In this document: positions 12,573 to 25,638 of the stretch, piece after piece
How positions within the stretch are numbered: the stretch's first letter is position 1
Layout: each line of letters begins with the position of its first letter
Virus record (IMG/VR): IMGVR_UViG_3300033143_004990
Location: 1 to 26,134 of that record
Source: a virus
Direction: 5' to 3' (one strand)
DNA length: 26,134 nucleotides
Notes under the pieces: model-generated
The model's input: only the letters and a program-made list of their open reading frames with translations
Databases searched by the model: none
Told to the model about the DNA's origin: nothing
Program-made: the position numbers and the translations under genes

Positions 12573-12821
12573 TTATTTATACTTTTTTTGGTGTTTTCTT
12601 TTTCTTAAATTTATATTCTTGCCCTCTTTGAGCATTTTATTCTTATACCTTTTTAATAGTTTTATTTTGAAATACCCTTTAAGGTTTATTTCTTCATTGT
12701 TCTGTAAGGCATTACGAAATCCATCAAAGAAATGGAAAACCACAATGTGAACAACAGCTTTATCAATTCCTAATTTCTTAGAAATCTCTGTTATAATTTT
12801 CGAATGCTTGTAATTTTTCAT
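12573..12821 (-). CDS. HU/IHF-like DNA-binding protein, reduced form
   Basis: An 82-residue protein. The order SKIITEISKKLGIDKAVVHI, FFDGFRNALQNNEEINLKGY, FKIKL matches the helix-helix-strand body of HU/IHF ('..LxxxGxxxxxxxxxVxxFxxxxxxxLxxGExVxLxGFGxFxV'). After the first strand the usual DNA-clasping arm with its R-N-P tip is missing and a Lys/Arg-rich tail follows (KEGKNINLRKRKHQKKYK). This suggests a shortened phage homologue that may bind DNA without bending it. The gene overlaps dnaB by 44 bases. Confidence 0.65.
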   Translation of the reverse strand: MKNYKHSKIITEISKKLGIDKAVVHIVVFHFFDGFRNALQNNEEINLKGYFKIKLLKRYKNKMLKEGKNINLRKRKHQKKYK

Positions 12822-14175
12822 TTTCTAAAAATTCAATTTCGGATGCAAACTTTGCAAATTGACTTATATACTTAAGGTTTTCATTTCCAATACCGGTTGA
12901 TCTTCCTTTAGCAATAATTATTTCAACATTTTCTATTTCAGGTATTCTTTCTTCAATTTCATAATAAGCTGCTCTATAAACAAACATTACCATATCAGCA
13001 TCTTGCTCAATGGCTCCTGATTCTCTTAAATCAGATAATATTGGTCTTTTGTTAGCTCTTTGTGTTACAGCTCTTGAGATTTGAGATATAGCTATAATAA
13101 CAATTTTTAATTCTCTGCATAACTGCTTGAATGTTCTTGATATTTTTGCTATTTCTTGCTCTCTTGTTCCGTTTCGTTTTGTGTTTGGAATAGTAACTAA
13201 TTGAAGATAATCTACTATAAAAAATTTACAGTTGTTTTTGATATTTAATTTTCTGATTTTATTACATATATGATTTAAATCTCCAGATTTATCATCAATA
13301 AAATAATTTTCATTTTCAAAATATTTAGCAGAATCATAAAAATCATTCCAATCTTTTTCTTTTAATTGCTTTTTTCTGATTTTACCTAAATGTATGCATC
13401 CATAAGATGCTATCATTCTTGTAAGTAATTGCTCTTTAGACATTTCTAAAGAAAAAATAGCTACAGGTAAGTTTCTAATAATATGATTTTTAGCAATTTC
13501 TAATGCAAATGCAGTTTTACCCATTGATGGAGCTCCAGCAACTATTATTAAGTCTGAAAGTTCCCAACCATATATAAAATTATCTATTTCCTGAATAAAT
13601 GTTTTAATATAATTCTTACCATCTTTATCAGACATATTATCTATTACGCCTTGTAAAGTTTTAATAGGGTTATATTCTTCAACATCTGCATATTCTTGTA
13701 ATTCAACAATTTTATCGGTTATTTTAGAGATAATTTCATCTGGATTAACCATATCATTTGAATCTTCGTTAATCTGATTTGCAAGATTTAGCAATTCTCT
13801 TCTTTGAGAATATGCCATTAATAATTTAATATGTGTTTTAATATGTGCATCAGTTGATACTCTGTCTGCAATTTCATTAATATAATCAATTAATGTAGCT
13901 CCTGTTTTTTCTATAATTCTTGTATTATAACCTTTTGTATTTACTCTATCAGTAACAGTTATAATATCAATTTTTGAATCTTCTGCACATTCTTGAATTG
14001 CTGTAAAAACATATCTTGAAGCTTCTGTAGAAAATCCTTTTATATTTACCTGGTCTGCAAATTCATAATATCTGTCAGGGTAATTAATAAAAGTACCTAA
14101 TACAATTTCTTCTAAATCGTGGTTACTTTGTCCAAAAAATGTACCTTCTTGTAAAAATGTTAATTGGTCGTTCAT
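12778..14175 (-). CDS. dnaB: Replicative DNA helicase, DnaB family
   Basis: A 465-residue protein, full length for the family. The N-terminal DnaB domain is at about 15-125 (NHDLEEIVLGTFINYPDRYY) and the RecA-like motor at about 185-450. Walker A is GAPSMGKT (214-221), followed by FSLEMSKEQL, the family's DnaB motif. Walker B is FFIVDYLQL (318-326), followed by ISQISRAV and SDLRESGAIEQDADMV (381-396), with KGRSTGIG (423-430) carrying the Lys/Arg finger. It unwinds DNA at the phage fork. It is the first gene of a cassette (DnaB, HU-like, unknown, Sak4-like, SSB-like) that starts after the hairpin at 14189. No helicase-loader gene is recognised in the window. Confidence 0.95.
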   Translation of the reverse strand: MNDQLTFLQEGTFFGQSNHDLEEIVLGTFINYPDRYYEFADQVNIKGFSTEASRYVFTAIQECAEDSKIDIITVTDRVNTKGYNTRIIEKTGATLIDYINEIADRVSTDAHIKTHIKLLMAYSQRRELLNLANQINEDSNDMVNPDEIISKITDKIVELQEYADVEEYNPIKTLQGVIDNMSDKDGKNYIKTFIQEIDNFIYGWELSDLIIVAGAPSMGKTAFALEIAKNHIIRNLPVAIFSLEMSKEQLLTRMIASYGCIHLGKIRKKQLKEKDWNDFYDSAKYFENENYFIDDKSGDLNHICNKIRKLNIKNNCKFFIVDYLQLVTIPNTKRNGTREQEIAKISRTFKQLCRELKIVIIAISQISRAVTQRANKRPILSDLRESGAIEQDADMVMFVYRAAYYEIEERIPEIENVEIIIAKGRSTGIGNENLKYISQFAKFASEIEFLENEKLQAFENYNRDF

Positions 14176-14221: not shown

Positions 14222-14653
14222 TTAGAAATTTTTAAAGATTTTTTCCATTATATTATCTGTAAAAAATCCTTGATCTTCTGCATCTTCTGAAGTTGGCAAC
14301 ATATTATACAGTTCTTTAACTTCAATATACTTATCTTTTAATATAGCTTCATAACAAGATAAGTGCAATGCTTTAATAGGAAATTTATTGTCAAAATATT
14401 CAGTTATTGCTTGACTTCTTTCAATATCTATATTTTTAGGAGAATCTTTATATATTTCATTTATAATATCAGTATCTCCATTATATTTTGCTAAAATATA
14501 AATATCTTTCCCATTTATCTCTCCATACCCATTATATGATTTGTCTATAAATACATTGTTAGGTGTAACTAAGACTATTCCATCATTATATTGAGTATGA
14601 GCATTTTTGATACTCTCTTTACAATGAGAGCAATTCCAGCTAAAAAATCCCAT
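14222..14653 (-). CDS. Phage/plasmid 'GFFSW' family protein with CxxC
   Basis: A 143-residue protein. It opens with MGFFSWNCSHCKESI, an N-terminal signature I recall in a widespread phage and plasmid family (usually GFFSW followed by D/S and SI) of unknown function. Here Cys8 and Cys11 form a CxxC pair. The middle has YNGYGEINGKDIYILAKYNG, also typical of the family. It starts within the stop of the DUF932 gene (TAATG) and so forms a two-gene cassette with it. A metal-binding accessory to the DUF932 protein is one possibility. Confidence 0.6.
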   Translation of the reverse strand: MGFFSWNCSHCKESIKNAHTQYNDGIVLVTPNNVFIDKSYNGYGEINGKDIYILAKYNGDTDIINEIYKDSPKNIDIERSQAITEYFDNKFPIKALHLSCYEAILKDKYIEVKELYNMLPTSEDAEDQGFFTDNIMEKIFKNF

Positions 14654-15759
14654 TATATTGTAACTAATAGTTTACCTGCGATATCTTCAATATCTCTTTT
14701 TCTTCTTGTATTACCTGATTGAACACCTACTTGAGTCATTGCTTGAGTTAGTTTCCAAATAGTATTTCTACCTTGAACACCATGTTCTGGGTTGTTATCA
14801 GAAAGTATATCAGTTAAAGATTTAACTTCATCTTTTCTCATACCCATTTTAGGAAGTTTTTTGATTTCAGTATCAATATTTACTAATCTGGATCCTGCTC
14901 TTTCAATATTTGAAACTTCGTGTAATAGAAATTCAGTATCAAAAGCACTATTAACAATATCTCTTACTAAAGAAGCTTGTGTTTCAGTATCTAATTTATA
15001 AGTTTCATTACTTAAAATTAAATTATCAGGTAATTTTTTACCTAAATGAACTTGTCTAATAAGATTATCTCTTGTCATTCCATTTAAACAAACTACTTGC
15101 ATAGAATATGATTGTACTCTTAAAGCTCCATCTCCATAATCAGAGTTAGAAATTCTAAGTCCAAATACCATATATGTTACACCATTATACTGTGTGTGTA
15201 CAGGTACAACTTCTGGTAAAATAAATTCTATGTAAGTTCTTGTTTCATCATAACAGCAATCCATTAATTGTGCACCTTGATTCACACAAGCATTAAAAAA
15301 TTCAGCATATATTTCAGCTGTATTTAATCTTCTATACTTGTCTGATAATACACCTTTAACTTGATTATCAAGAGTTCTTATAAGAAATCTTTTAGGTTCA
15401 TGATTAATGGTATGTTCATTTAACATTTGAGTAGCTAAATCTCTTTCCCATTGATTTGTACCAGTAGCTAAAGATTTTAGATAGGTTGTTGGTATTCCTA
15501 ATTTATCTCCTAATTGACCTACAGCATGTCTATGAATTTTTTGATAGTTTCCATCAATATTCATTTGCACAGATCCATTAGCGTAAAATAAATTATAGTT
15601 TGTCATACCACCAATTGGCATAATCAAATCTTCAATACCGTTACTTTCTTCTTGAATTTTTCTAATAGTTGGCATTTTATCAGATGCATCACTTAATACT
15701 CTGGTAATTTTTTCTTGCAGAATACTCTGCTCAGTTGGATTAATTGTTTGTATTTCCAT
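14653..15759 (-). CDS. DUF932 phage/plasmid-like protein
   Basis: A 368-residue protein. Recognisable DUF932 segments are AVGQLGDKLGIPTTYLKSL (about 79-97), RFLIRTLDNQVKGVLSDKYR (about 125-144), VFGLRISNSDYGDGALRV and the MQVVCLNGMTR box that normally closes the central beta domain. The family is common on phages, plasmids and integrative elements and often lies beside PRTRC genes, as here; its biochemical activity is not established. It heads a cassette with the GFFSW protein, after the hairpin at 15777 and the leader TTTTAATAATATATT. Confidence 0.85.
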   Translation of the reverse strand: MEIQTINPTEQSILQEKITRVLSDASDKMPTIRKIQEESNGIEDLIMPIGGMTNYNLFYANGSVQMNIDGNYQKIHRHAVGQLGDKLGIPTTYLKSLATGTNQWERDLATQMLNEHTINHEPKRFLIRTLDNQVKGVLSDKYRRLNTAEIYAEFFNACVNQGAQLMDCCYDETRTYIEFILPEVVPVHTQYNGVTYMVFGLRISNSDYGDGALRVQSYSMQVVCLNGMTRDNLIRQVHLGKKLPDNLILSNETYKLDTETQASLVRDIVNSAFDTEFLLHEVSNIERAGSRLVNIDTEIKKLPKMGMRKDEVKSLTDILSDNNPEHGVQGRNTIWKLTQAMTQVGVQSGNTRRKRDIEDIAGKLLVTI

Positions 15760-15776
15760 AATATATTATTAAAACA

Positions 15777-15799
15777 AAGAGCACCAAAGAGGTGCCCTT
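15777..15799 (-). promoter_or_regulatory. Intercistronic hairpin (ThiF / DUF932 junction)
   Basis: Stem AAGAGCACC (15777-15785) / GGTGCCCTT (15791-15799) with two G-T pairs, and loop TCTTT in the mRNA sense. It lies 3 bases after the ThiF stop and 17 bases before the DUF932 ATG. Confidence 0.8.
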
Positions 15800-15802
15800 G
15801 CT

Positions 15803-16567
15803 TTAAAGTTTGATAGGATTTACAGCCATTGTATCTAAATTCATAAAAACACCATGTTGAGCGGTTCTATAATTTCTAAATAACTTCCATAATAAATTCA
15901 TACCAAATTCTGCTAATGTTGAATTAACTAATAAATCTTGTTTATTTAAAGCTTCTAAAGTACTACAGCTTGGAGTATCTTCATTTTCTTTTAATTTACC
16001 AATAGTTTTTTCCATTTCTATTATAGTAGGCATTGTAGGGTTATTAGCACCTTCAGGTTGGTTTATATGACCCATAGTTCCTAAAATTGCTTGTCCAAAA
16101 TTATCTCCATTTCCAAAATCTAACCAATAATGGCAAGTATTATATGGACTTCTTGTTCTCAAATAGCATTTAGCTTTTTGAATGTCTTTTCTAATTTGAA
16201 CATTATCTACACATGTTATTATAATATTAAATGGTATGCTTGGGTTATCAAAATCAATTTCAAACTTTCCTGGAATACTATCCCAATTAGTACTATAAAA
16301 TCTGTTAATTCTTTCTATTGTTACATCTGCTTTAAATCTGTCTAAATCTGTTTCAGAGAATAATTGTCTACCAATATTTGCTCTTGAAACTTTATCAGGA
16401 TCATAGCATCTAACAAAAAATCCTGGGTGACCTAAGCCAATTAATCCAGCATTCATTCTTCCTAAAATAGCTAACACTGAACTACCAGTACCTCCAGCTC
16501 CTATAACTGCTATAGTTACTTTATGTACTGGTGCTATCAATGTTTGCTCCATATAATGATATTTCAT
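15803..16567 (-). CDS. PRTRC system ThiF (E1-like adenylyltransferase)
   Basis: A 254-residue protein. VIGAGGTGSSVLAILGRMN (residues 21-39) is the Rossmann ATP-binding loop of ThiF/MoeB/E1 enzymes. Asp56 (YDPDKVS), Asn64-x2-Arg67 (NIGRQLF), Lys79 and Asp121 (ITCVDN) are the conserved adenylation residues, all present. The later YWLDFGNG, GQAILG, DTPSCSTLEALNKQDLLVNS (Cys201) and HGVFMNLD segments are specific for the PRTRC ThiF group. Family knowledge predicts activation of the C-terminal glycine of a ubiquitin-like protein with ATP; Cys201 is the candidate thioester cysteine. It overlaps PRTRC B by 4 bases. Confidence 0.93.
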   Translation of the reverse strand: MKYHYMEQTLIAPVHKVTIAVIGAGGTGSSVLAILGRMNAGLIGLGHPGFFVRCYDPDKVSRANIGRQLFSETDLDRFKADVTIERINRFYSTNWDSIPGKFEIDFDNPSIPFNIIITCVDNVQIRKDIQKAKCYLRTRSPYNTCHYWLDFGNGDNFGQAILGTMGHINQPEGANNPTMPTIIEMEKTIGKLKENEDTPSCSTLEALNKQDLLVNSTLAEFGMNLLWKLFRNYRTAQHGVFMNLDTMAVNPIKL

Positions 16568-17244
16568 ATTATATCTTTTAGCTTTTTTTTACGATAATTT
16601 GTTAAGTTTTTAGAATCTCCAAAACCATTTTTATCCCAAATAACATTAATATTGTTTTTGAAATTCTGATGGTTTAAATGTGTAAATTTTGATCTAAAAA
16701 ATAGTTGTTCTATATGTTGTATCAATTTTTCTAAATTGCATATATTCCAATCTATACTTGCATTTCCCATACATACTTTACCATCATTATATATATTATG
16801 AAATGGTGCATAAAAAAGATTAGTTTCTAATCCTTTAAAACATTTATAGGCATATACAGATAGCTTAGTATCTTTTATTTTAAATATTAAATTAGGTACA
16901 CATTTAAATTCCTTAGAAATATTATGTTTTTCATCAAAATTCAAATTAATATGACTCTTTTTAAAAGTCCATATTAAATTTAATTCTTGATTATTTGTAT
17001 TAAAATAAATAACATTCTTAGGTATTAATCCTTTAAATTCATATTTACTTTTATCTAAACCTTCTATTTCTTTTAACAGTTTTCCTAAAATTTTGATTCG
17101 TGCTGGTTTACCAGGTCCAAATGTAAATTTGTTTTCTTGTAATTCTCTAATTGCGTGTTCTTCTATATAAGTGTTAACTGTTTTTTCAGTTTTATACACA
17201 ACTAAACTCATTACGGGTTTCATATACTCGGGAATTTCATTCAT
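16564..17244 (-). CDS. PRTRC system protein B (candidate E2-like conjugating protein)
   Basis: A 226-residue protein. FGPGKPARIKILGKLL (about 42-57), a beta-rich core, and then APFHNIYNDGKVCMGNASI (146-164) and LFFRSKFTHLN (181-191) are the conserved blocks of PRTRC B. The H149-N150-I-Y-x-D-G-x-V-C158 stretch resembles the H-P-N...G-x-I-C-L active-site region of ubiquitin-conjugating E2 enzymes, with Cys158 in the catalytic position. I recall PRTRC B being classed as E2-like in comparative genomics. It starts inside the end of the F-like gene (8-base overlap) and overlaps ThiF, so the candidate E2 and E1 are translated together. Confidence 0.85.
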   Translation of the reverse strand: MNEIPEYMKPVMSLVVYKTEKTVNTYIEEHAIRELQENKFTFGPGKPARIKILGKLLKEIEGLDKSKYEFKGLIPKNVIYFNTNNQELNLIWTFKKSHINLNFDEKHNISKEFKCVPNLIFKIKDTKLSVYAYKCFKGLETNLFYAPFHNIYNDGKVCMGNASIDWNICNLEKLIQHIEQLFFRSKFTHLNHQNFKNNINVIWDKNGFGDSKNLTNYRKKKLKDII

Positions 17245-18262
17245 ATATTAAATACATACTTGCTAACCAATTTCTATAATTTTCAGGAAATTCATCCTTT
17301 TTGTTTTTATTAAAAGGATTTTTAGCTGTTATTTGACATTCTTTATAAAATGGTAATATATCATAGTTTTGATAGTAATGATTTGCTTGTTCTTCATATC
17401 TATTAAAGACAACATCAGCTTCATCTACATTCCATAATAAATTAGCATAATATTCTGGTCCAAACCAAAAATCATCATCTTCATTAACGATAGTTTTATA
17501 AGGTATATAATTATTAAAATCTTCTGTAATAATTTCAAACCCTTCTTCTATCCAAGCTAATATTTTCTGATCTTTATAGTTGTTAATTTTTATTTTACTG
17601 AGCATTTCTCTTAAAGATTTCTCAGTATGATTAGATTTTTGAAAATTAATTTTTTGCTCTAAAGGCATTACGGTTTTTTTATAAAATTTAATCGTTTCAA
17701 AAGCTTTTTTAATTTCATCTTTATCTAAATCTTCTACCCAGTCATTAATATAATCTTCACATATATCTACAATATAATCCATACCATGTAGAAAAGGAAT
17801 ATGAAAATGTTGTACTAAATAGGAGAAATACTCCCAAATGAAATTTTGCCAATCTTTTTTAAGACCCATAATCCAATATAATTCACTACAAAATCCATTG
17901 TAATTTGTAGTGTTATCTTCAGCTGTCCATAATTCATAATCTCCATCATCATTTTTAGAAATTTTCCAGATATCTAAATCTTTTGTTATTTCTTTTAATA
18001 GATAATGATTGAAATCATATATATTCATATTAGGCACATCATCTTTGATATAGTGTTTACCTATAGGATATAAAAAATTAAGTAACTTAGTAGGTTCCTC
18101 TTTAAAGATTAATTCAGATTTAGCTTTTAATATAGGGGTTTTAAGAGTGAAGAAGGAGTTTTCATTCTTTCTTCCATAATGACATTTACTTTGTCTTTTT
18201 CTTCTTGCAAAATAATTATTGCGATACTGTGCCTCTGTTGAGGATAACATTTCTTTTTGCAT
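17237..18262 (-). CDS. PRTRC system protein F-like
   Basis: A 341-residue, mainly helical protein with many aromatic residues (for example WQNFIWEYFSYLVQHFHIPF at about 137-156, and WFGPEYYANLLW). Assignment to PRTRC F rests mainly on gene order: cassettes usually read E-C-F-(ParB)-A-B-ThiF, and this gene sits between C and B. I cannot point to a diagnostic motif. It starts at ATG 18262 after the hairpin at 18298. A shorter out-of-frame ATG at 18297 is closer to the hairpin but opens only a 56-residue frame. It is the first gene of the F-B-ThiF cassette. Confidence 0.6.
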   Translation of the reverse strand: MQKEMLSSTEAQYRNNYFARRKRQSKCHYGRKNENSFFTLKTPILKAKSELIFKEEPTKLLNFLYPIGKHYIKDDVPNMNIYDFNHYLLKEITKDLDIWKISKNDDGDYELWTAEDNTTNYNGFCSELYWIMGLKKDWQNFIWEYFSYLVQHFHIPFLHGMDYIVDICEDYINDWVEDLDKDEIKKAFETIKFYKKTVMPLEQKINFQKSNHTEKSLREMLSKIKINNYKDQKILAWIEEGFEIITEDFNNYIPYKTIVNEDDDFWFGPEYYANLLWNVDEADVVFNRYEEQANHYYQNYDILPFYKECQITAKNPFNKNKKDEFPENYRNWLASMYLIYE

Positions 18263-18297
18263 TTAGTCAGTTTTTTAAATAAATCTGTATGTTTCAT

Positions 18298-18330
18298 AAT
18301 CAGGGAACAACAAAGCGTTGCTCCCTAATT
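18298..18330 (-). promoter_or_regulatory. Intercistronic hairpin dividing the PRTRC cassette
   Basis: A 14-bp stem (18298-18311 with 18317-18330, two G-T pairs) closes a GCTTT loop in the mRNA sense. It starts 2 bases after the stop of the 18332 gene and splits the PRTRC genes into E-C-x-x and F-B-ThiF units. Confidence 0.85.
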
Positions 18331-18331
18331 A

Positions 18332-18559
18332 TTACTTCTTTGCAAAAAGATATTTCTTTAAATTTATGTCTTTACACATAGTAGTTTTAGTTGATAATTT
18401 TACTTTTTCACAACATAAATAACTTGTGTTCTTTCCGTAATTATCTGATACATAAGTGTCAAAATCGAATCTTGCAAATTCTGCATATCTTGCAAATTCT
18501 ATAGATTCTATAACAACACTTGCAGTAGCATATTCAAATATGATAATGTATTGTATCAT
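18332..18559 (-). CDS. Hypothetical protein inside the PRTRC cassette
   Basis: A 75-residue protein. The N-terminal half is hydrophobic and beta-prone (MIQYIIIFEYATASVVIESI) and contains an internal repeat EFARYAEFARF, encoded by a 14-bp direct repeat (18469-18482, 18487-18500). The C-terminal half is Lys-rich with three cysteines (YLCCEK, TMCKDI). No family is recognised. Its start overlaps the previous stop (ATGA). Confidence 0.6.
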   Translation of the reverse strand: MIQYIIIFEYATASVVIESIEFARYAEFARFDFDTYVSDNYGKNTSYLCCEKVKLSTKTTMCKDINLKKYLFAKK

Positions 18560-18726
18560 TTTTTCTTATTTAGATATTTTTTGAAATATTCAAGATTAAA
18601 ATTTGCACAAGTTTTTTTCAAGTGCATACAAATAGTATGAGATACATCTGCAAATGTTTCTGGAGATGTATGTTTCTTGACCTCTAATAGAGAGTCAGCT
18701 ACGATGATGAAATCTTTTCTTGTCAT
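18556..18726 (-). CDS. 56-residue phage protein between PRTRC C and the 75-residue gene
   Basis: This ORF is exactly bounded by its neighbours. Its ATG shares a base with the PRTRC C stop (TAATG) and its stop forms ATGA with the next start. The product begins MTRKDFIIVADSLLEVKKHT and ends with a NFNLEYFKKYL segment. This resembles a common small phage family beginning 'MTKKDFxxIAxxL' and ending 'NPxFDxxxF', whose function is unknown. Confidence 0.65.
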   Translation of the reverse strand: MTRKDFIIVADSLLEVKKHTSPETFADVSHTICMHLKKTCANFNLEYFKKYLNKKK

Positions 18727-18929
18727 TAGCCTTTTGTTCCTACATTATTTTTAAAAGTATAAACGCATTTTTCATTTTCAATTTTTGGACCTTCTACAGT
18801 AGCTGTAGTTAATTCCGGAAATTGACCTGAATAAAAATCTAAAACTTCATTGACAGTCATATCTTGCGAAGGATCTGCCAGTTCAGTTTTATTGAGTAAA
18901 AAGATTCTTTCAATTTTAGTTGCTTTCAT
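18726..18929 (-). CDS. PRTRC system protein C (candidate ubiquitin-like modifier)
   Basis: A 67-residue protein. FLLNKTELADPSQDMTVNEV (10-29), then DFYSGQFPELTTATVEGPKI (31-50), CVYTFKNNVGTKG (55-67). The 'FYsxxyPELTTAxVEGP' and terminal 'VGTKG' blocks are diagnostic of PRTRC C. The strand-helix-strand order and size fit a beta-grasp (ubiquitin-like) fold, and I recall this family being proposed as the Ubl of PRTRC systems. The protein ends in Gly67, so its C terminus would be ready for adenylation by ThiF without proteolytic trimming. It shares single bases or short overlaps with both neighbours, directly behind PRTRC E. Confidence 0.9.
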   Translation of the reverse strand: MKATKIERIFLLNKTELADPSQDMTVNEVLDFYSGQFPELTTATVEGPKIENEKCVYTFKNNVGTKG

Positions 18930-19762
18930 TAGTATGTAAATGTTGATTGTGAACTATTAAATCTATTATCTCTTTCTTGTCTTATCATTTCTTCTTGTTC
19001 ATCAGAAATTGGTTGAATATCATTGCCTACAGAATTATTTTCTTGAATAGGTGGAGTTTTATATTCTTCAATATTAGCTTCATCTACTCTTGCTTCAAAT
19101 TCTTTATCTTGCCTATGCATTTCTTCATCTACATTTTCCATTTCTTTTTGAAACTTTGGTGTTCCATCAGGATAAGTAGATTGAACTGGTTCAGCTTTTG
19201 GTACATCAGGTAATGGTTGTATTTCTTCAACAACAGGTTCTTTAGGTGCTTCAACTTGACTAAACATATCTGGTTGAGAGTTATTTGCATCACATTCTTT
19301 AACAAGTTGTGTAGCTTTACTAAACTTAGGATCATCTTTAAGAATTTGATTACAGATAAATTTACATTTATCATATTCTTTTTCATCCCAATATTTTTGA
19401 GCTTTCTCAAGTTGTTTAATTGAATGTTCTCTAACTTTCTTTTGCTTATCTTTTTCTGCTTTAGCAATTTCAGATTCTTCTTTAGCTTTTTCAACAGCTT
19501 TTTCGTGCTCATGCATATTTCTTAATAATCCACTTGATTTTTCTAAAGGAGTTTTTAGAAGCTGAAAAAATTGAGCATCAAATTCATCTACAGTTCCAGT
19601 AAATAATATTGGTTGTAAATAATCTTTTGCATTGTCTTTGACTTTCTTTAATGGATTAACAGATACACATAATTCAGTTTCATTATTCTTTCGAATAGTA
19701 ACATTAAGTGTTTCTGATACCAATAATAAGTCATTAATTTGTTTAAAAAAGGTTGTATTCAT
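18929..19762 (-). CDS. PRTRC system protein E, extended form
   Basis: A 277-residue protein. The first 85 residues match PRTRC E: a short N-terminal helix (TTFFKQINDLLL), beta strands (TLNVTIRKNNETELCVSVNP) and PILFTGTVDEFDAQFFQLLK. The family is usually shorter. Here follow a charged coiled coil (about 85-120), one TPR-like helix pair (KAQKYWDEKEYDKCKFICNQ, then ILKDDPKFSKATQLV, about 119-153) and a long Pro/Glu/Gln-rich disordered tail. The TPR-like part suggests protein-protein contacts. It is the first gene of the E-C-x-x cassette, after the hairpin at 19779 and a TTTTAAAAATATATATAT leader. Confidence 0.8.
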   Translation of the reverse strand: MNTTFFKQINDLLLVSETLNVTIRKNNETELCVSVNPLKKVKDNAKDYLQPILFTGTVDEFDAQFFQLLKTPLEKSSGLLRNMHEHEKAVEKAKEESEIAKAEKDKQKKVREHSIKQLEKAQKYWDEKEYDKCKFICNQILKDDPKFSKATQLVKECDANNSQPDMFSQVEAPKEPVVEEIQPLPDVPKAEPVQSTYPDGTPKFQKEMENVDEEMHRQDKEFEARVDEANIEEYKTPPIQENNSVGNDIQPISDEQEEMIRQERDNRFNSSQSTFTY

Positions 19763-19778
19763 ATATATATATTTTTAA

Positions 19779-19810
19779 AACTTAACCCACAACAAAGTGT
19801 GAGTTAAGTT
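19779..19810 (-). promoter_or_regulatory. Intercistronic hairpin upstream of PRTRC E
   Basis: A 13-bp stem AACTTAACCCACA (19779-19791) / TGTGAGTTAAGTT (19798-19810), with loop CTTTGT in the mRNA sense. It is followed by the leader TTTTAAAAATATATATAT and the ATG of PRTRC E. Confidence 0.85.
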
Positions 19811-19824
19811 GTATGCGTGCATAC
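19811..19824. promoter_or_regulatory. GTATGC-GT-GCATAC inverted repeat
   Basis: A perfect 6-bp inverted repeat with a 2-base centre lies between the stop of the 19827 gene and the hairpin upstream of PRTRC E. It has the form of a dimeric repressor operator, but no cognate regulator can be assigned; it may only extend the hairpin structure. Confidence 0.35.
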
Positions 19825-19826
19825 TT

Positions 19827-20204
19827 TTAATCAAATAGATTTCTATTCAAATTATTTCTTTGTTTAGTTAAAGCAGATGCTACAGAAAATATAGCTTTTG
19901 CTCTTTTTTCTAAAGACTCTATGTACCTGTTAATATCTTCGACATTATTAGTTACATAATATCCTTTAGAACTACTTACTAAACAACTAACTTTATCATA
20001 TAATCTAATATGATTTATAATCTTCCTTATACGAGCTCCATTAACATCTTTATAATTAGATCTTAATTTTCTACACATTTCAGCATTGGTAATAGCATTA
20101 CTTTTACCTATTCTTCTTTGTAGTCCTCTAATCATTGCAGGCATTAATATATTTTTCTCATAATCATTTAAGGGTGCTGTATGATCTTCAAATCCTGGTA
20201 TCAT
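19827..20204 (-). CDS. Winged-helix-like phage regulatory or replication protein
   Basis: A 125-residue protein from ATG 20204 (MIPGFEDHTAPLNDYEKNIL), preceded by GGAGAAGAA; an ATG at 20234 would add ten residues. NAITNAEMCRKL (about 39-50), ARIRKIINHIRLYDKVSCLV (about 60-79) and SSSKGYYVTNN (about 80-90) form a helix-turn-helix with a beta wing, as in small phage proteins that I recall as winged-helix replication or regulatory factors. The C-terminal helix (IESLEKRAKAIFSVASAL) could be a dimerisation or helicase-contact helix. It ends before the hairpin that precedes PRTRC E. Confidence 0.65.
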   Translation of the reverse strand: MIPGFEDHTAPLNDYEKNILMPAMIRGLQRRIGKSNAITNAEMCRKLRSNYKDVNGARIRKIINHIRLYDKVSCLVSSSKGYYVTNNVEDINRYIESLEKRAKAIFSVASALTKQRNNLNRNLFD

Positions 20205-20400
20205 TTCTTCTCCATTTTTCAATATCATCAACATTATCTCCTAATATCTCTTTACTTGCTCCCCATTGTTCCCAAGATTCATAGCATTTGCATCCATAAA
20301 TAGTATGGATTTTATTGCTTTCATCTTTGCGAATAAACACTATTTCAGCGTGTTTTTCTTCTTTTGTGGGTTTTCTAATTTCAATAAGCTTTGTTGCCAT
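20188..20400 (-). CDS. Hypothetical 70-residue phage protein
   Basis: A 70-residue soluble protein with an N-terminal IEIRKPTKEEKHAEIVFIRK strand-turn-strand, then TIYGCKCYESWEQWGASKEI. The YGC...YESWEQWG segment is reminiscent of small phage proteins in Bacteroidota, of unknown function. It overlaps the winged-helix-like gene by 17 bases and begins just after the stop of the 20403 gene. Confidence 0.6.
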   Translation of the reverse strand: MATKLIEIRKPTKEEKHAEIVFIRKDESNKIHTIYGCKCYESWEQWGASKEILGDNVDDIEKWRRNDTRI

Positions 20401-25475: not shown

Positions 25476-25503
25476 ATTCAAGGCACAATTAAGTGCCCTG
25501 AAT
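25476..25503 (-). promoter_or_regulatory. Intercistronic hairpin upstream of the 25175 gene
   Basis: An 11-bp stem ATTCAAGGCAC (25476-25486) / GTGCCCTGAAT (25493-25503) with one G-T pair and a TTAATT loop instead of CTTTG. The stem shares CAAGGCAC with the copy upstream of dnaB. Confidence 0.85.
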
Positions 25504-25638
25504 AAAAATGGTTTTCTCATTATATGCTTACCAATAGCATATAAGATATTATAACTTGATGTAGCTATAATTACAGACTTCTACAATAAGGATTACTTAT
25601 CTAAAATCAGATAGCACCTAAGTACTATCTGAATGTTA
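25504..25638. other. Gene-free stretch with two inverted repeats
   Basis: There is no ORF. TTATATGCT / AGCATATAA (25520-25528 with 25536-25544) and TCAGATAG / CTATCTGA (25607-25614 with 25625-25632) are perfect inverted repeats. The second lies just past the stop of the 25639 gene and may close that transcript; the first may be an operator or part of a leader. Confidence 0.5.

Follow-up and report, generated by a model that had tools for sequence, protein, structure and literature searches.

PRTRC cassette of the phage and its relatives

The window, that is, the whole IMG/VR virus record IMGVR_UViG_3300033143_004990 (26,134 bases), carries on its minus strand a PRTRC cassette with the parts of a ubiquitin-like (Ubl) conjugation pathway: an E1-like enzyme (ThiF), an E2-like protein (B) and a ubiquitin-like modifier (C). 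From 19762 (start of E) to 15803 (end of ThiF), the gene order is PRTRC E, C, a 56-amino-acid (aa) open reading frame (ORF), a 75-aa ORF, a 341-aa protein in the F position, B and ThiF (Table 1). On the same strand, ThiF is followed by a DUF932-like gene, a 143-aa ORF and the gene of a DnaB helicase, so that the cassette, with all its genes intact, lies near phage replication genes. It is almost certainly an intact PRTRC cassette of the Bacteroidota-type form, which is free of the JAB protease (A), in the replication region of a phage.

Profile searches place ThiF, B, C and E in PRTRC families, as an initial annotation made from the sequence had proposed. B stays under the cut-off of TIGR03737 (91.5 bits, E 4.7e-26, against 131) and is a clear but divergent relative. 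The 341-aa protein, which the same annotation had called F-like, had no match with an E of 1 or less in Pfam or in NCBIfam, which includes TIGR03742 (PRTRC_F), and a single PHROG match (E 0.36). An iterated search that started from a Parabacteroides plasmid protein recovered it, and profile-profile comparison with phage members excluded (99.4% probability, E 1.5e-21) placed it in a family that occupies the F place in Bacteroidota plasmids and chromosomes (Bacteroidota-type F). This family matched the Proteobacterial PRTRC F weakly (probability 43%), and for the model of the window protein Foldseek gave no significant match and VIA-align a best Z of 2.8.

The longest relative, a 59.9-kb contig (G1), shares 25.6 kb with the window at 99.9% identity and encodes virion structural and endolysin-type proteins. 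The same cassette order is found in two further relatives, the phage contigs G2 (52 kb) and G3 (43 kb), with aligned pieces of cassette DNA 74–84% identical. Matches to PHROG families in the window include DnaB, Sak4-like, exonuclease VIII-like, tail-fibre and endolysin-type proteins. G1–G3, which are fragments, gave no match to a terminase profile, and a search of phage DNA seeded with 8 kb of the window returned no match. The host is probably a member of Bacteroidota, because the nearest plasmid and genome relatives of ThiF are from Bacteroidota. When the window was compared with the two related phages, the ratio of nonsynonymous to synonymous substitution rates (dN/dS) was 0.16 for ThiF, 0.20–0.22 for C, 0.31–0.32 for B and 0.36–0.38 for F and E; therefore, the cassette is kept by purifying selection.

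Table 1. Positions in the window of the cassette genes, the residues discussed and two neighbouring genes (pLDDT, predicted local distance difference test).
Feature	Position	Strand	Evidence
PRTRC protein E, 277 aa	18929–19762	−	PF19556, 110 bits (cut-off 26); TIGR03741, 60 bits (cut-off 38)
Clamp-binding-like motif QPDMF, E residues 163–167	19262–19276	−	Pattern match
PRTRC protein C, putative ubiquitin-like modifier, 67 aa	18726–18929	−	PF14454 (Prok_Ub), 88 bits (cut-off 25); TIGR03738, 76 bits (cut-off 46)
C terminus VGTKG, Gly67	18729–18731	−	
Small ORF, 56 aa	18556–18726	−	8 loci
Small ORF, 75 aa	18332–18559	−	8 loci
F-position protein, 341 aa, mostly helical, Bacteroidota-type F family	17237–18262	−	Iterated search, profile-profile comparison; model pLDDT 80.5
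PRTRC protein B, E2-like	16564–17244	−	PF14460 (Prok-E2_D), 80 bits (cut-off 25); model pLDDT 91.3
B Asn150	16795–16797	−	
B Cys158	16771–16773	−	
B His189	16678–16680	−	
PRTRC ThiF, E1-like adenylating enzyme	15803–16567	−	TIGR03736, 235 bits (cut-off 145)
ThiF Cys201	15965–15967	−	
DUF932-like protein	14653–15759	−	phrog_1362, E 1.3e-56; PF06067 below cut-off only
DnaB-like replicative helicase	12778–14175	−	PF03796, 284 bits

Iyer et al. (2006; PMC1779556), in the entry for operon type 6d, list, besides an E1 and a JAB protein, a helical protein, an E2-like protein and a small Ub-like protein whose C-terminal Gly is conserved; the E2-like protein has a Cys and a downstream His that replaces the usual one. 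We take type 6d to be PRTRC, because the gene set fits and because plasmid records found here agree with its organism codes Ppro, Posp. and Rfer if these stand for Pelobacter, Polaromonas and Rhodoferax, as we read them. The E1/E2/Ubl reading was already given in 2006, and therefore the ubiquitin reading is old, not new here. With PRTRC/6d (TIGR03734–03739, 03741 and 03742) the window shares E, a Gly-terminal C, a helical protein in the F position, an E2-like B with Cys and downstream His, ThiF and the gene order. It differs in being phage-borne, in lacking any match to JAB (a member of 6d), ParB or D, in its diverged F and B and in two extra small ORFs. The open-access literature searched yielded no report of PRTRC function and, by title or abstract start, no paper among those mentioning PRTRC that names a phage-borne PRTRC or a clamp.

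Two records come close to the window. The Parabacteroides distasonis plasmid NZ_OY725769.1 has E-C-F-B-ThiF without JAB or ParB between them and a ThiF 42% identical, but it is no phage and lacks the 56- and 75-aa ORFs. Burkholderia phage BgVeeders33 carries E, C, F, B and ThiF in the order E-C-F-B-A-ThiF; unlike the window, it has JAB (A), a longer C (129 aa) and a Proteobacterial-type F. In its annotation, five of the six cassette genes are hypothetical and ThiF is a dinucleotide-utilizing enzyme.

A wider search found a ThiF relative in 112 stretches of viral contigs and 103 of genome contigs, from each of which 80 loci were kept; the genome relatives came from an alignment scan, a single-sequence scan of the genome contigs having returned none. 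All 80 viral loci match the PRTRC ThiF profile, and C, B and ThiF are all present in 72 of them and in 71/80 genome loci. Among 72,556 plasmid records, 367 have a ThiF relative; of the 50,697 phage records, 4 have one, which in two cases is only 25–27% identical. The terminase profile was positive in 12 of the 50 viral loci tested (out of 78, L028–L105); the terminase-negative contigs may be fragments, other phages or misfiled elements. Hence a cassette in a phage, as initially annotated, is borne out, although it is not unique to this phage (BgVeeders33 and the 72 viral loci).

As the initial annotation reported, ParB, D and JAB have no match in the window, nor have they in the three related 43- to 60-kb contigs, which are incomplete; each search was positive in control records, and D was searched for in the window, these contigs and two plasmids. 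The absence of JAB and ParB is no peculiarity of the phage: among the 80 cassettes with a Bacteroidota-type F, on plasmids, chromosomes and phages, 76 are without JAB and 79 without ParB, JAB occurring in L151–L154 (records titled Deltaproteobacteria) and a ParB-profile match in L036. Because both are rare with this F type, neither is required for this form of the cassette.

The 56- and 75-aa ORFs between C and F recur in loci that represent four distinct phages (the window with G1 and L028, G2 with L029, G3 with L030, and L031), and the DUF932-like gene lies behind ThiF in the window phage, G1–G3, L005–L007 and L031. In a Tunicatimonas plasmid (L011, 15059–17259), a second Ub-like operon (multiubiquitin, ThiF-type and DUF6527) lies ∼7 kb from the PRTRC cassette.

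E1-like, E2-like and ubiquitin-like components

The residues singled out by the initial annotation are all where it had put them: GAGGTGS (residues 23–29), D56, N64, R67, K79, D121 and C201 in ThiF, H149, N150 and C158 in B, and VGTKG at the end of the 67-residue C. Their retention in relatives was analyzed in alignments of non-identical rows; from the ThiF tree, ten rows with identical ThiF were removed, as were G1, G2, G3 and L028, which repeat contigs already present. Cys201 of ThiF is present in 157 of 158 rows, the remaining row having a gap, and D56, N64, R67, K79 and D121 in 154 of 158 (four gaps; some rows are fragments), so that these residues and the Gly-rich loop are found in every row that covers them. 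ThiF is distantly similar to ThiF/MoeB. Sequence searches of the PDB with ThiF, B and C gave nothing better than E 0.02.

In B, the expected active-site region was only partly confirmed. Asn150 (147/148 rows, one gap) and Cys158 (147/148, L155 having Gln) are nearly invariant, but His149, which had been counted as part of the site, is present in only 14/148 rows, and a downstream His189 is conserved instead (138/148). The Asn150–Cys158 spacing is 8, and the HPN-to-Cys spacing in E2 enzymes is 8. An AlphaFold2 model of B was compared by VIA-align with the top 1000 chains of Foldseek: rows 1–22 were all E2/UEV structures, as were 24 of the first 25 by title, the best being 1yf9 (Z 5.6, root-mean-square deviation 4.0, 123 residues aligned). 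As anticipated in the initial annotation, the model is closest to E2 enzymes, and B appears to have a UBC-like fold with a putative catalytic Cys after the Asn, at modest structural scores.

The N-terminal part of the B model (residues 6–70) weakly resembles PC4/Pur-alpha nucleic-acid-binding folds (Z 2.9–3.7; Foldseek probability up to 0.57). This part could be a DNA-contact domain, or the resemblance could be only a common arrangement.

C has a Ub-like profile match (PF14454) and a free C-terminal Gly, the marks of a ubiquitin-like modifier. In many relatives C extends past this Gly, and we compared the presence of such a tail with that of JAB, using a profile built from four A proteins (all 70 matches carry the JAB motif). 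Among 154 cassettes with C, B and ThiF, contig copies included, 62 have JAB and a tail, 87 have neither and 4 have JAB alone. In L156, an apparent tail without JAB proved to be a misalignment, and its C ends in Gly. For a second count, 11 plasmid loci (ten picked for diversity, and L186) were added, of which the 8 with a profile-found C were used. Of the resulting 148 cassettes with non-identical ThiF, 63 have JAB and a tail, 79 neither, 6 JAB alone and none a tail alone; every C that extends past its Gly comes with JAB.

Read most simply, the pattern means that the Gly of C has to be exposed and that JAB would be needed for maturation only where a tail must be removed. The C of the window is of the ready-made, Gly-terminal kind, and the claim in the initial annotation that Gly67 makes a processing protease unnecessary fits this pattern. 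The pattern lends genomic support, not significant on the tree, to C maturing at its Gly and serving as a modifier.

The gene set varies in another way in a Deinococcus plasmid (L186, 1686–8627), where one E-C pair is followed by two tandem B-ThiF pairs.

DnaN genes beside the cassette and the tail of E

A DnaN-type gene recurs among the cassette neighbours of relatives. A DnaN-profile match was found in 22 loci, in 19 of them inside or directly beside the cassette (14 among the kept viral loci and 5 among the genome loci) and further away in L064, L066 and L153. After removal of L106, L135 and L139, which repeat L032, L051 and L053, the clamp gene is inside or adjacent in 16 of 19 loci. Four of five representatives tested have all three Pfam clamp domains (DNA polymerase III beta) over the cut-off, and the fifth (L038) has two. 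The gene lies mostly upstream of E, at 109 nt in L036; in L041 it precedes an ORF that takes the E position but is unassigned, it lies between C and F in L053 and its duplicate L139, and in L057 it stands just after ThiF, overlapping the ThiF end.

In a reverse scan, DnaN alone served as the query against viral contigs, and 80 loci were kept. PRTRC genes were present in 12, in 11 of them directly behind DnaN; in L202, an unassigned ORF lies between the clamp and the PRTRC genes. Four of these loci (L200, L203, L204 and L239) were new with respect to the earlier 80 kept viral loci.

E consists of an N-terminal family domain (about residues 1–110) and a long variable tail. In all window ORFs of at least 60 aa, the pattern used matches only once, at the QPDMF motif in the tail of E; this motif is identical in G2, G3 and L031 despite differing flanking residues. 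The clamp motif of E. coli Pol III is QADMF, and the clamp-binding consensus, as printed in PMC13254535, requires L, I, V or A at position 2.

We counted such motifs in 68 clusters of E tails (from E proteins of 111 to 420 residues), with expectations from 300 shuffles. The published consensus occurred in 7/68 clusters against 1.2 expected (shuffle maximum 6), Q-x-x-[LM]-F, which allows any residue at position 2 and ends in Phe, in 16/68 against 1.0 (shuffle maximum 5), and [LMI]F within 3 residues of the C end in 25/68 against 0.5. An LF-type motif was present in 17 of the 19 clamp-linked E tails, against 2.6 expected (maximum 7). Neighbouring ORFs (947 clusters) were at expectation for both Q-x-x-[LM]-F (52 vs. 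51.8) and the consensus (31 vs. 29.9), and no enrichment was seen in ThiF, B, C, F or A. A clamp-like motif was also frequent in ParB (20/31); all but one of these lie in a conserved internal Cys-rich stretch, and they were set aside by eye.

Proposed role of the cassette and alternatives

These data suggest that (i) the cassette probably performs Ubl conjugation, as the conserved residues, the E2 likeness of B and the C-terminal Gly of C indicate; and (ii) it may target the sliding clamp, a tentative proposal for which the chances fall somewhat below even. The best explanation overall would be a clamp-directed, protease-free Ubl conjugation system, which we hold with a little less than even confidence. 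ThiF would adenylate Gly67 of C and may hold C on Cys201; B would then take C over on Cys158, completing a thioester relay, and attach it to a protein. Since C is made with its Gly exposed, the cycle should be able to begin without a JAB protease, whose absence may also leave the tag on its target. With the QPDMF motif in its tail, E would recruit the machinery to the DNA sliding clamp, and the clamp, or a protein on it, would be the likely substrate. In the window phage this would be the clamp of the host, because the available sequence yielded no clamp gene of the phage itself. The tagging of host or phage proteins during replication, one of the roles proposed in the initial annotation, gains some support from the DnaN link.

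In eukaryotes, PCNA is ubiquitylated and SUMOylated. PRTRC might be the bacterial and phage counterpart of this modification, with E docking on the beta clamp and ThiF and B attaching C to the clamp or to a clamp-bound protein, here on the host clamp, so that replication would be redirected to the phage; this extension is doubtful. The logic, a Ubl machine on a replication clamp, would be the same, whereas the clamp-targeting parts have no shown homology and the substrate here is hypothetical. If this is true, Ubl modification at the replication clamp would exist outside eukaryotes, in bacteria and phages. The recurrent operonic clamp and the E tail motif give PRTRC a concrete target open to simple binding assays. 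By title or abstract start, no paper linking a sliding clamp with Ubl modification was found in the open-access literature searched.

Several observations weigh against a clamp-directed conjugation system. We found no biochemistry on the cassette. Foldseek gave no significant match for the B model (best E 0.28), and VIA-align examines Foldseek's own candidates only and warns that Z below 8 may reflect a common arrangement. The JAB/tail pattern follows lineage: the ThiF tree, with rows thinned to 87 and then to 82 by leaving out L013, L080, L081, L083 and L086 (fragments or very long branches), shows five JAB state changes, and of 4 independent pairs on supported branches ∼2.6 agree with the rule, 0 go against it and ∼1.4 show no difference (p 0.25), which falls short of significance because there are too few independent switches. 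The C of L239, a clamp-linked locus, terminates in Ala instead of Gly.

The clamp part of the proposal meets objections of its own. All of the eight closest DnaN loci of the reverse scan have PRTRC genes but only 4 of the other 72 do, and the closest matches are biased because the query was built from cassette-linked clamps. No DnaN match was found in the window phage or in G1–G3 (43–60 kb seen), and therefore the clamp link rests on other cassettes and on the E motif. QPDMF itself departs from the consensus at position 2 (Pro), fitting 4 of the 5 positions of Q-phi-x-[L/M]-[F/L]. Neither motif form is present in 33/68 E clusters, and 2 of the 19 clamp-linked E tails lack the LF-type motif. 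The looser patterns were devised after the tails had been inspected, and the consensus, though taken from a paper, was likewise applied after inspection.

In an alternative reading, the conjugation system works but the tail of E binds another partner with a short hydrophobic end, and DnaN occurs in relatives only as part of the same replication module. Many E proteins have a C terminus without Gln (LDLFG, VDLY or DLL), 52/68 clusters lack the Gln motif, and DnaB also adjoins some cassettes. That DnaN lies within the cassette or immediately next to it although the flanks otherwise differ, and in L053 even separates C from F and in L057 overlaps the end of ThiF, speaks for a closer tie, and we regard a different partner as unlikely.

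An equally unlikely role for a working conjugation system is in conflicts with host defence or rival phages, by tagging an immune protein or protecting the infected cell, like CBASS Cap2 or Bil. CBASS Cap2/Cap3, Bil and multi-ubiquitin operons have the E1/E2/Ubl logic in common with the window, with different gene sets, and such operons are known as anti-phage defence (PMC10097602; for Bil, PMC11354881). ThiF has a weak match, through its E1 part, to the PADLOC E1-E2 models (best E 2.7e-6, 24 bits). It was, however, the only one of ten window proteins (14222 to 20234) with a PADLOC match below E 0.001, two others reaching E 0.0045 and 0.0069 to unrelated models, and the recurrent partners in relatives, whose neighbours were outside the PADLOC scan, are DnaN, DnaB and ParB. 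The countering of host Ubl-based defence, which the initial annotation had also considered, found no support here.

More improbable still is a replicon maintenance or partition module, a plasmid-type stability system for a phage that persists outside the chromosome. The frequency of ThiF relatives in plasmid records and the ParB gene that heads the operon in many Proteobacterial cassettes would suit it, but the PRTRC ParB model has no match in the window or G1–G3, ParB accompanies this F type in a single cassette of 80, and no partition family was found among the 30 window proteins scanned with Pfam. A sulfur-carrier or cofactor pathway, with C as a ThiS/MoaD-like carrier, has very little probability: it would explain the likeness to ThiF/MoeB, but an E2-like B with conserved Asn and Cys is present in 162 loci, against 172 with ThiF, some loci being cut off, and the plasmid regions viewed carry no gene annotated for thiamine or molybdopterin. 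A decaying passenger without function, at which the fast evolution of F and B (57% and 67–68% identity between related phages) might hint, can practically be dismissed, because all genes are open in three phages in the same order, dN is well below dS and the catalytic residues are kept.

Three further features lie outside the cassettes. Upstream of that of the window, a 70-aa ORF (20188–20400) has a sub-threshold Pfam match to APOBEC3 (E 0.0011, 19.5 bits, cut-off 27), which is probably due to chance. At 25501–25583, G1 (59894) and G2 (51972) share 83 identical nt with the window, after which both contigs stop at one and the same position while the window continues; G3 is 96% identical over 141 nt. 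This common end could mark a terminus or another physical site, or it could be a shared break in the assemblies. Finally, the phage loci L044, L049 and L059 carry downstream of PRTRC ThiF one gene of 691 aa and one that is octopine-dehydrogenase-like (an assignment tested in L059 only), and genes of the same clusters recur in two more phage loci; the contigs of L043, L044, L048, L049 and L059 carry a terminase match.

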